A DNA stretch of 64,000 bases, from assembly GCF_002903165.1 (NCBI RefSeq), contig NZ_PPSK01000003.1, positions 1 through 64,000 on the forward strand, given 5' to 3'. Position 1 is the first letter of the stretch. Each line of letters starts with the position of its first letter. The notes below the pieces were generated by a model. That model was not told where the DNA came from and did not search any database. It saw only the letters and a program-made list of their open reading frames with translations. This DNA comes from Halopseudomonas oceani. Its GTDB lineage: Bacteria > Pseudomonadota > Gammaproteobacteria > Pseudomonadales > Pseudomonadaceae. This document shows, piece by piece, positions 3,824 to 6,814 of the stretch. A program made the translations under genes and the position numbers.

Positions 3824-5509
3824 ATGAGCGCAGCGATCCTGCTACTGATCGGGCTGGGGTTGATGACCCTGGGGTACTTCATTTATTCCCGCTTCATTGC
3901 CAACCGGATCTATCGCCTCGATCCGGATTTTCGTACGCCAGCACACGAGTTCGAAGATGGCATCGACTTCGTACCGACCAACCGCTTCGTGCTGTGGGGT
4001 CACCATTTCACCTCCGTCGCCGGCGCTGCACCCATCGTCGGGCCCGCCATTGCAGTAATCTGGGGCTGGCTGCCCGCCTTCATGTGGGTGGTCATGGGCA
4101 CCATCTTCTTCGCCGGCGTACACGATATGGGGGCGGTCTGGGCCAGCGTACGCAACAAGGCCAAATCAGTCGGTTCGCTGACCGGCGATGTGGTGGGCAA
4201 ACGCGCCCGCAGCATTTTCATGATCGTGATCTTCCTGGTGCTGCTGATGGTCAACGCGGTATTTGCGGTGGTGATTGCCAAGCTGATGATGAATTTCCCG
4301 ACCGCCGTTCTGCCGGTCTGGGGCGCCATTGCCGTCGCATTGATCATCGGCCAGTTGATCTATCGCCGCATGATCAGCCTGCCAGTGGTCTCGGTAATTG
4401 GCGTCGTTGCGCTCTATGCGCTGATCTGGGCAGGCCCGAGCGTCCCGATTCAGATGCCGGCCGAGGTTGCCGGACTGTCAGGCAATGCCATCTGGATTCT
4501 GCTGCTATTCCTCTACGCGGGCATCGCCTCAGTGTTGCCGGTGTGGATGCTGCTGCAGCCGCGTGACTACATCAATGGCTTGCAGCTGTTCGTCGGCCTG
4601 CTGATTCTGTACGGCGCAATCATGCTGCTGAACCCGGCGCTGGTCGCGCCGATGATCAACGATGATGTGCCTGCCGGCACGCCCTCGATCGTCCCGCTAC
4701 TGTTTGTCACCATCGCCTGCGGCGCCATTTCAGGCTTCCACGGGCTGGTGTCTTCCGGTACCACGTCCAAGCAGCTCGACAAGGAAACCGACGCCCGCTT
4801 CGTCGGCTACTTTGGAGCCATCGGTGAAGGCTGCCTGTCACTGGCGGCGATTCTGGTTGCCTGCGCCGGTTTTGCCAGCCTGACGGACTGGAAAGCCATG
4901 TATAGCGCCTTTGGCCAGGGTGGCGTGACCGCCTTCGTGCAGGGCGGCGCCTATGTCATCCACAACGGGCTGGGCCTGCCGCAGGTGACTGCCGCCACCC
5001 TGCTCACGGTGATGGCGGCCCTGTTCGCCGGCACTACCATGGATACCGGGCTGCGTCTGCAGCGCTATATTTTCCAGGAGTGGGGCGAGATCTATCATCA
5101 GGAGTGGATGAAGAAACCGCTGCCCGCCACCCTGCTGGCGATCGGCAGTTGCCTGCTGCTGGCCTTTGGTGCCGGCGGAGCGGACGGTGCCGGCGGCATG
5201 ATTATCTGGCCGCTGTTCGGCACCACCAACCAGTTGCTCGCCGGCCTGACCCTGCTGGTGATCACCGTCATGCTGGTGCACTACCGTCGGCCCATGTGGT
5301 ACACCCTGCTACCGCTGTGTTTCCTGCTGCTGATGACAGTGACCGCACTGGTGATTCAGCTCAAGACCTTCTACGACCAGCAGAACTACTTCCTGCTCGT
5401 GCTGGATATCGTGGTGCTGATTGCCGCCATTCTGGTCGCGCTGGAGTGCGCTGCGGCGCTGAAACGGCACTTGGCACTGGCGGCAGCGGAGCAAGCCGAT
5501 GGCCGCTGA
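3824..5509 (+). CDS. cstA: CstA-family transporter (carbon starvation / peptide or pyruvate type), short form
   Basis: A 561-residue polytopic inner-membrane protein with at least 13 hydrophobic segments. The N-terminal motif GHHFTSVAGAAPIVGPAIAV (residues about 62-81) and FFAGVHDMGAVWASVRNKAKS are signatures of CstA/BtsT carriers, which in E. coli import pyruvate or peptides under carbon limitation. It is much shorter than E. coli CstA (about 700). The ATG at 3824 has an AGGAG ribosome binding site. It overlaps the next gene by 11 bases. The next genes encode a small protein ending in Cys-Cys and an ArsA-like ATPase, so this is the transport component of a three-gene locus. Confidence 0.9.
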   Translation: MSAAILLLIGLGLMTLGYFIYSRFIANRIYRLDPDFRTPAHEFEDGIDFVPTNRFVLWGHHFTSVAGAAPIVGPAIAVIWGWLPAFMWVVMGTIFFAGVHDMGAVWASVRNKAKSVGSLTGDVVGKRARSIFMIVIFLVLLMVNAVFAVVIAKLMMNFPTAVLPVWGAIAVALIIGQLIYRRMISLPVVSVIGVVALYALIWAGPSVPIQMPAEVAGLSGNAIWILLLFLYAGIASVLPVWMLLQPRDYINGLQLFVGLLILYGAIMLLNPALVAPMINDDVPAGTPSIVPLLFVTIACGAISGFHGLVSSGTTSKQLDKETDARFVGYFGAIGEGCLSLAAILVACAGFASLTDWKAMYSAFGQGGVTAFVQGGAYVIHNGLGLPQVTAATLLTVMAALFAGTTMDTGLRLQRYIFQEWGEIYHQEWMKKPLPATLLAIGSCLLLAFGAGGADGAGGMIIWPLFGTTNQLLAGLTLLVITVMLVHYRRPMWYTLLPLCFLLLMTVTALVIQLKTFYDQQNYFLLVLDIVVLIAAILVALECAAALKRHLALAAAEQADGR

Positions 5510-5780
5510 CCGTGGCGAGAAATGGCGCGCCTGGCTGAGTCAGGCGCGCTTCTTCCTGGAAGAGGCCTATAGCTCGCGCTACCGCGGTGCTATCGCCCGC
5601 AGCCGACGTGACCATGATGATCTATTCATGCTGCTGGTGTTCAGCGAGATGATGGGCGTGCCCAACCCAGCGTCCTACTACACTCTGGAGCTGCAGCCAC
5701 TGCTGCTTGAACGCTTCCACGACTGGCACCGACGCATGGGCATGGAGCATTCACCGCTGGACCATTTCCGCTGCTGCTGA
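5499..5780 (+). CDS. Small CstA-associated protein ending in Cys-Cys (cory-CC-star type)
   Basis: A 93-residue protein whose last residues are HFRCC. I recall this family being called cory-CC-star in NCBI annotation. It has no membrane segment; the middle is helical and rich in Arg and aromatic residues (RARFFLEEAYSSRYRGAIA-like). E. coli CstA and BtsT are each paired with a small protein (YbdD, YjiX) that also ends in RCC, so a CC tail next to a CstA carrier is a recurring theme even though the bodies differ. GGAG lies upstream of the ATG, inside the cstA end. The terminal cysteine pair could bind a metal, be modified, or contact the carrier; none of this is shown. Confidence 0.75.
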   Translation: MAADRGEKWRAWLSQARFFLEEAYSSRYRGAIARSRRDHDDLFMLLVFSEMMGVPNPASYYTLELQPLLLERFHDWHRRMGMEHSPLDHFRCC

Positions 5781-5794
5781 TCGGGAGAGCCGAC

Positions 5795-6814
5795 ATTTCC
5801 ACTACCAACCTTGATCTGCTGCAACGCCGCCTGCTCTGGGTCGGCGGCAAGGGCGGCGTAGGCAAAACCACGGTCGCTGCAGCGCTGGCCGTGCTGGCGG
5901 CAAGCCGGGGGCTACGCTGCCTGATCGTCTCGACTGACTCGGCGCACAGCCTGGGAGATGTGTTTGATCGTCCGCTGGATGATCGCCCGAAACGCCTGCT
6001 GCCCAATCTGGACGCCATGGAAATCGACCCCGACGCCGAGGTCGACGCCCATCTGCAACGGGTAACCGAGCAGATGCGCAAACTGGCCGCGCCGGAGATG
6101 CTGAGCGAGCTGAAGCGACAGATGCAATTGACCCGCCATTCGCCCGGGACTCAGGAGGCGGCGCTGCTTGAGCGCATCGCCAGACTGGTCACGGCGCCGC
6201 CAGACAACTACGACCTGATTATCTTCGACACCGCCCCGACCGGGCATACCCTGCGCCTGCTCACCCTCCCCGAAGCCATGGCCGCCTGGACCGACGGACT
6301 GCTCAGCCACAACCGTAAGTCTGCGGAGCTGGGCAAGGTGCTGCAGCACCTGACGCCTCGCAGCGGGCGTGATCTGAATAGCCCGTTTGACGACCCCAAC
6401 GAAGACCCTCTGGACGGCCTGGACCAGCGCACCCGCAGCGTTGCTGAAACCTTGCGCAACCGTAGACGACTGTTCCATAAGGCTCGCCGCCAGTTAGAGG
6501 ACCCGACGGTCAGCGGTTTTCTGTTTGTGCTGACAGCCGAGCGACTGCCGATTCTGGAAACGGTACGGGCAGTAGAGAGTCTGCAGCAGGCGCAGATTCC
6601 GGTCGCTGCAGCGCTGGTCAACCGGGTCATCCCCGACAGTGCCGACGGCCACTTCCTGCAGCAACGACGACGGCAGGAAGCCAGCTACCTGCAACGTATT
6701 GACCACGACTTGGGCCACCTGCCGCGCCCGCTATTACCCTGGCTGGAAACCGACGTGCAGGGCATCGAGGTCCTTCAGCAACTGGCCCAGCTGTTGGCAG
6801 AACAGGGGTTTTAG
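5795..6814 (+). CDS. ArsA/Get3-family ATPase, probable ATT start
   Basis: A 339-residue P-loop ATPase. The deviant Walker A GGKGGVGKTT (residues about 18-27), switch I STDSAHSLGDVF and switch II FDTAPTGHTLRLL are diagnostic of ArsA/Get3 proteins. It holds a single ATPase half. Only one cysteine is present, so neither the metalloid-binding cysteines of ArsA nor the CxxC zinc site of Get3 exists, arguing against arsenite export. The frame has no ATG or GTG before the P-loop; ATT at 5795 sits 5 bases after a strong GGGAGAG ribosome binding site, giving MSTTNLDLLQRRLLWVGGKG. A CTG at 5816 is the alternative. Adjacent to the CC-tail gene (14-base gap). Confidence 0.85.
   Translation: MSTTNLDLLQRRLLWVGGKGGVGKTTVAAALAVLAASRGLRCLIVSTDSAHSLGDVFDRPLDDRPKRLLPNLDAMEIDPDAEVDAHLQRVTEQMRKLAAPEMLSELKRQMQLTRHSPGTQEAALLERIARLVTAPPDNYDLIIFDTAPTGHTLRLLTLPEAMAAWTDGLLSHNRKSAELGKVLQHLTPRSGRDLNSPFDDPNEDPLDGLDQRTRSVAETLRNRRRLFHKARRQLEDPTVSGFLFVLTAERLPILETVRAVESLQQAQIPVAAALVNRVIPDSADGHFLQQRRRQEASYLQRIDHDLGHLPRPLLPWLETDVQGIEVLQQLAQLLAEQGF

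Follow-up and report, generated by a model that had tools for sequence, protein, structure and literature searches.

Operons that combine a CstA carrier with a small protein named CstX and an ArsA-type ATPase were described by Castillo and Saier (2010, PMC2963123), who proposed, in the parts of their paper devoted to these operons, that CstX links transport by CstA to the hydrolysis of ATP. Their account there is based on 26 operons, 24 of them with CstX; the carbon-starvation ATPases are placed in clusters 14-18 and possibly 7, and cluster 18 comprises Psychrobacter, Alcanivorax, Idiomarina and Pseudomonas stutzeri together with one actinobacterium (Brevibacterium linens). By the same account the operons are without arsR, and the metalloid cysteines of ArsA (C113/C172/C422) are missing from the single-domain proteins. 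Here we analyze a locus of this type in Halopseudomonas oceani, located in a stretch of 64,000 nucleotides (contig NZ_PPSK01000003.1, positions 1 to 64,000 of the forward strand; hereafter the window). We find that its three genes are consistently linked across genomes, that the small protein and the ATPase go together, and that the carrier can stand alone. The first-pass annotation of this DNA knew of no described function for such a trio, which is incorrect in view of the operons and the coupling proposal in the cited parts of PMC2963123.

The locus has the composition by which a CstA-CstX-ArsA operon is defined, namely adjacent genes for CstA, for a CstX of about 90 amino acids and for a single-domain ATPase of about 330 amino acids. 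The genes are all on the forward strand, overlap or nearly touch, and form one unit: cstA shares 11 bases with the gene of the small protein (hereafter the CC protein, after its two terminal cysteines), and 14 bases separate the latter gene from the start of the ATPase. The features are the following.

3824-5509, + strand: CstA-type carrier of 561 amino acids, short form (PF02554, 464.6 bits)
5499-5780, + strand: cory-CC-star (CstX-like) protein of 93 amino acids, ending in HFRCC (NF041419, 134.6 bits)
5718-5729, + strand: codons of the FHxWH motif, H74-x-x-H77 of the CC protein (motif kept in 114/114 sequences)
5772-5777, + strand: codons of the terminal C92-C93 of the CC protein (CC end in 110/110 loci)
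5783-5789, + strand: Shine-Dalgarno-like GGGAGAG ahead of the ATPase ATT (GGAG in all 15 loci with an isoleucine start codon)
5795-5797, + strand: probable ATPase start codon ATT (no in-frame ATG, GTG or TTG upstream of the P-loop)
5795-6814, + strand: single-domain ArsA/Get3-type ATPase of 339 amino acids (TIGR00345, 247.1 bits)
5843-5866, + strand: P-loop GGKGGVGK (invariant in 36 aligned trio ATPases)
6227-6250, + strand: DTAPTGHT, switch II (almost invariant in the 36-row alignment)

On re-check the coordinates, the overlap and the gap given by the first-pass annotation proved exact. Its description of a 93-residue protein ending in RCC and of an ATPase with intact nucleotide motifs and one cysteine also agrees with the family model, the alignment and the cysteine count reported below.

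A scan of GTDB contigs with the CC protein returned at least 568 stretches encoding relatives, of which the best 80 were kept; the CC tail was not part of the search patterns used. Together with 30 loci from a survey of 299 Pseudomonadota genomes and a survey of the genus, these make up a set of 110 loci (some species were reached twice; there are 86 distinct CC sequences). In all 110 loci, which were fetched by the CC protein, the three genes are adjacent and in the same order, with intergenic gaps of -26 to 249 bases between carrier and CC gene and of -10 to 279 bases between CC gene and ATPase gene. One locus (L092) is exceptional in that its ATPase frame ends early, at 149 codons. Among the 299 genomes the CC family is present in six, all with the trio, and another sample of 398 genomes, which overlaps the first, contains six matches, the only new one (L160) being a trio as well. 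The genus survey consisted of three separate family searches, with matches at adjacent coordinates: 25 of 37 genomes contain the CC family, and the same 25 have an ATPase over the cut-off and a carrier of this type. The other 12 genomes, three of which are only 75-81% complete, yielded no CC family, no ATPase over the cut-off and no carrier of this type; a distant CstA paralogue occurs in four of them (G303, G312, G323 and G331). Six plasmid records encode the CC protein, and the three that were opened (Paracoccus, Pseudochrobactrum and Cytobacillus) all carry the trio. Among 14 control genomes, Haloferax volcanii has a CC-family match below the cut-off with both other families present. We conclude that the adjacency, for which the first-pass annotation had suggested a survey of co-occurrence, is not due to chance.

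In the Cytobacillus record (Bacillota) a gene for an extra protein of 95 amino acids lies between cstA and the CC gene (L132:5630-5917).

The linkage is not equally tight for all three genes. A CstA of some kind occurs in 155 of the 299 Pseudomonadota genomes, and the ATPase family was found over its cut-off (E up to 1e-20) in 17. Intact single-domain ATPases (frames of 329-367 amino acids) are present in six of these 17, which are exactly the six genomes with the CC protein; ten of the other 11 have frames of 579-918 amino acids in which the ArsA domain occurs twice, and in the last (G184) the family is present as fragments. Within one gammaproteobacterial family the short-form carrier was found at E up to 1e-90 in 14 of 79 genomes (a fifteenth genome has a long form). 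Six of these short-form carriers are part of a trio and eight are alone (loci L139-L141, L148, L150-L152 and L154): the six trio genomes have the CC protein and the ATPase, and the eight carrier-only genomes have neither anywhere in the genome. The CC protein is, accordingly, tied more tightly to the ATPase than to the carrier.

The carrier tree points in the same direction. The eight carrier-only sequences (support 100/100) are nested in the trio clade, with the trios of Cytobacillus and L160 branching outside, and a tree that forces all trio carriers into one clade is rejected (approximately unbiased test, p 0.0108). The most parsimonious history has two changes and includes a joint loss of CC protein and ATPase, the apparent origin of the nested carrier-only clade. 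The stem of this clade is long (0.61 and 0.84 in two trees). Its consensus departs from the trio carriers at 28 of 284 trio-conserved columns, and because only these differ, the carrier seems to have been kept for use without the other two proteins.

The window carrier belongs to the CstA family (464.6 bits against PF02554, gathering score 27) and falls outside the E. coli-type CstA equivalog NF011590, where it reaches 253.5 bits at a cut-off of 1188. The CC protein, which scores 134.6 bits against NF041419 (cut-off 80) and has the C-terminal CC, is a member of the cory-CC-star family; no Pfam match was obtained for it at E up to 1, and sequence comparison with solved structures gave no match for the carrier and none for the CC protein. 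Its best 19-residue hydropathy mean (KD19) is 1.02, with values up to 1.39 across the set, and because of this low maximum no membrane span is predicted. The closest match among the best 80 GTDB stretches is from Halopseudomonas aestusnigri (100% over 93 residues). The protein ends in CC in 110/110 loci, or in 119/119 (95 distinct sequences) when nine further loci are counted for which the extraction script required a CC end, each of the nine yielding one. No variant ending in selenocysteine (Sec) was seen among these 119 sequences, which come from Pseudomonadota and one Bacillota record. The motif FHxWH is present in 114/114 CC proteins (the 110 loci plus L132, L133, L134 and L160, with six sequences of the gammaproteobacterial family left out), its F always being the 21st residue from the end, at a fixed spacing to the CC; since one of the two scan patterns contains FH[DE]WH, the choice of 80 of these 114 sequences partly favoured the motif. 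The structure model of the CC protein is helical but weak (predicted local distance difference test, pLDDT, 65.3; predicted template modelling score, pTM, 0.42).

The ATPase belongs to the family modelled by TIGR00345 (GET3_arsA_TRC40), with 247.1 bits at a cut-off of 135 and both the P-loop and the DTAP motif, and it matches Pfam ArsA_ATPase with 240 bits. Among ArsA/Get3 chains in the PDB the best E is 2.3e-55 (2.5e-52 for the archaeal chain 3zq6). The alignment shows an intact P-loop, switch I, DTAPTGHT and conserved Asn, and from these intact nucleotide motifs ATP hydrolysis would be expected. The structure model is fair (pLDDT 79.3, pTM 0.79), with low confidence for residues 168-200. A sequence STDSAH is found in the window ATPase (5930-5959), and STDPAH in the other 109 of the 110 loci.

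Features specific to ArsA or to Get3 are lacking. With 339 amino acids in one domain and 143.6 bits against TIGR04291 (ArsA, cut-off 650), the protein falls outside ArsA proper. Across the 110 loci the ATPase has no cysteine in 39, one in 63, two in seven and three in one; the window ATPase, with one, does not have the three metalloid cysteines of ArsA. Get3 is marked by a zinc-binding CxxC and a methionine-rich client groove. The window ATPase has neither, and no CxxC occurs in any ATPase of the 110 loci. The segment that matches what we take to be the position of the client-binding helices of Get3 is charged in the window ATPase and has 1 Met in 80 residues (0-3 in the 36 aligned rows), against 6 in 63 residues in the archaeal 3zq6, which is one comparison only.

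The start of the ATPase gene is unusual. In the window the frame has no ATG, GTG or TTG from the preceding stop codon up to the P-loop, and in total 15 of the 110 loci (9 distinct sequences; for instance L008, L010-L012, L015, L016, L019, L021 and others) have a frame without an ATG start and with ATT or ATC instead. The codon is ATT in seven of the distinct sequences and ATC in two, GGAG lies 7-8 bases upstream, and the downstream codons vary; two of the nine have another in-frame GTG or TTG, badly placed. All these loci are from the genus of the window or from records named Halopseudomonas, Pseudomonas or Pseudomonadaceae. Among the other 95 loci 94 have ATG, and L084 has only GTG and TTG candidates. 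To judge from the sequences, one Halopseudomonas lineage probably starts its ATPase at ATT or ATC (a CTG start is also possible). Because the rare start is kept across the lineage, it suggests low or regulated synthesis of the ATPase, for which infC, with its ATT start, offers a parallel.

A small neighbour with a similar tail is known from E. coli, where ybdD follows cstA and where BtsT also has a small neighbour, YjiX. YbdD ends in RCC, as does YjiX, and 18 of 20 YbdD-family sequences end in CC (the remaining two in CPC). As reported in the section of PMC5847655 that concerns them, CstA and YbdD together make up a constitutive importer of pyruvate, and normal uptake depends on each of the two, a precedent for a CstA that works with a small partner. 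Some members of the YbdD family (DUF466) in Campylobacterales end in Cys-Sec, a feature that the authors, in the relevant passage of PMC4607533, read as pointing to redox activity; Cys-Sec members of DUF466 also appear in the list of PMC13188914. The kinship with YbdD and YjiX at which the first-pass annotation hinted is nonetheless unsupported: aligned with hhalign, the two profiles reach a probability of 3.3, an E of 0.013 and a score of 17.2, which 7 of 120 column shuffles also reach, and the score drops to 13.7 once the three final columns are removed. Nor does the CC protein match PF04328. In one draw of 120 genomes that family occurs in 19, all of them CC-negative, and it is absent from a chosen set of 41 genomes, of which 29 are positive and 12 negative for the CC gene; the genome of the window is also without it. 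The parallel between the CC protein and YbdD is one of place and tail, with descent unproven.

Considering all of this, we propose that the products of the three genes work as a single transport system. In it CstA would act as a secondary carrier of a small carbon source, perhaps pyruvate or peptides if the analogy with E. coli CstA and BtsT holds, and the CC protein and the ATPase would together be an accessory module docked to the carrier from the cytosol. The ATPase would bind and hydrolyze ATP as a dimer of the ArsA/Get3 type and would drive or gate the carrier, as ArsA does for ArsB, with the soluble, helical CC protein as the link between the two; the HxxH and the terminal CC may form a redox-active or metal-binding site that determines when coupling can occur. 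In this scheme it is dimerization, docking, energizing, the chemistry of the site and the substrate that we infer, starting from the linkage, the intact motifs of an ATPase without metal cysteines, the joint presence and joint absence of CC protein and ATPase, and the fixed HxxH-CC spacing. That the module couples ATP hydrolysis to the carrier, or gates it, with the CC protein as the link, is a reading close to the proposal in the cited parts of PMC2963123, and we judge its chances of being right or wrong to be evenly balanced.

Several points weigh against this coupling reading. Gene linkage by itself fits any shared function, and the energizing step is the weakest part: because carrier-only CstA is kept without an ATPase, the ATPase may regulate or assemble the carrier and not energize it. 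The HxxH-CC site is not reliably placed in space by the weak model of the CC protein. As a candidate docking surface on CstA we considered the 22 fixed differences between trio and solo carriers, which turned out to be scattered, mostly conservative and without pattern. Distances between CC proteins and between ATPases are correlated (r 0.39, 0/2000 permutations) in a comparison that ignores species relatedness. As for the joint loss, the constrained group was named only after the first tree had been seen, and the inference depends on the position of Cytobacillus and L160 (both long branches) outside; among the remaining 40 tree rows the deepest branching is not resolved, and the tree program itself issued a long-branch warning.

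It might be argued that the pair of CC protein and ATPase is a redox- or metal-responsive regulator, in which the CC tail senses the thiol state or a metal and the ATPase switches the carrier off or on with no energizing at all. The FHxWH and CC at fixed spacing (114/114) fit such a sensor, and so do the Cys-Sec ends in the DUF466/YbdD partner family with the redox activity suggested in that part of PMC4607533; yet homology between the CC protein and DUF466 is not supported (7/120 shuffles), and the CC family, in the few phyla sampled, has no Sec variant (119/119 CC). We regard this regulator as a tentative explanation with a substantial minority of the probability. A second possibility is that the ATPase works like Get3, as a targeting or assembly chaperone by which the CC protein or CstA is installed, with no role in transport. 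Get3 and the ATPase share the subfamily model TIGR00345 (with 3zq6 at E 2.5e-52), and the carrier-only relatives, which indicate that the module is dispensable, fit a chaperone too. Nevertheless, the client-helix segment is charged and poor in methionine (1/80 against 6/63 in the single comparison with 3zq6), none of the 110 ATPases has CxxC, and in the CC protein there is no transmembrane segment in need of targeting, so that we consider a chaperone unlikely.

Export of arsenic or another metalloid by an ATPase that is ArsA would agree with the Pfam ArsA_ATPase match of 240 bits. It is opposed by the score of 143.6 bits against the 650 demanded by TIGR04291, by the single domain, by one cysteine or none in 102 of the 110 ATPases, by the occurrence of two-domain ArsA in other genomes, and by the recurrent neighbours, among which (named mostly by eye, four proteins by Pfam) no arsenic gene is seen; we deem this explanation extremely improbable. 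The first-pass annotation tentatively linked the ATPase to the carrier instead of to arsenic, and this view is supported by the joint occurrence of the three genes in the same 25 of 37 genus genomes, the 0/110 ATPases with CxxC and the 39/110 without cysteine. A wider generalization would be that CstA carriers recruited soluble subunits with two His and two terminal Cys (cory-CC-star with an ATPase; YbdD without one and sometimes with Cys-Sec) that gate carbon uptake by redox state or bound metal, the site in the trio switching an ArsA-type ATPase and thereby making a secondary carrier ATP-driven. We find this broad version doubtful and would be surprised to see it hold in full.

A conserved fourth partner was not found, since even the most widespread neighbour cluster is present at only 42 of the 80 loci on genome contigs; several of these clusters are plainly wrong-frame, and names were mostly given by eye, with four proteins named by Pfam. 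In 42 of the 80 a divergent gene upstream encodes a protein of about 690 amino acids (e.g. L059:495-2558, - strand), which in one case (687 amino acids) has a C-terminal exonuclease domain according to Pfam and hydrophobic N-terminal stretches. In 32 of the 80 a gene that looks by eye like a response regulator lies upstream of the trio. These divergent exonuclease-domain or response-regulator-like neighbours are possible regulators of the locus.

In the literature searched, which leaves subscription journals mostly outside, we found no laboratory test of a CstA-CstX-ArsA system, nor the name cory-CC-star, nor CstA together with Get3. What the present analysis adds to the work of Castillo and Saier is the size of the survey, a nested carrier clade in which CC protein and ATPase are both absent, a CC protein predicted to be soluble, the fixed FHxWH-CC layout and the ATT/ATC start. 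This joint absence makes the coupling proposal testable, since a single bacterial family offers related carriers both in natural carrier-only form and as part of a trio. If it is true, an ArsA-type ATPase gains a metabolic carrier as partner, and it would help to explain why CstA partners end in CC.

Compared with known systems, the trio shares different parts with each. E. coli CstA-YbdD and BtsT-YjiX likewise consist of a CstA-family carrier with a small neighbour, and the YbdD and CC families both have two near-invariant His and two Cys; nonetheless the E. coli pairs have no adjoining ATPase, and their carrier is longer (701 amino acids for CstA against 561 in the window). The ArsA-ArsB pump also places an ArsA-fold ATPase beside a carrier, and ArsB can work without ArsA, but its ArsA is two-domain and has metalloid cysteines, whereas the trio ATPase has neither. 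Get3/TRC40 shares the sequence family and the nucleotide motifs, and differs in that the trio ATPase is without CxxC and has few Met in the client segment. The operons of Castillo and Saier are closest, with the same three genes, a single-domain ATPase of about 330 amino acids and a CstX of about 90 in the parts of PMC2963123 that describe them. The archaeal CstX is presented there as a single-TMS (transmembrane segment) protein, whereas the CC protein of the window is without such a segment, and the parts that cover CstX give no sequence and mention no CC tail; from its size, place and company CstX is nevertheless probably the same protein as cory-CC-star.

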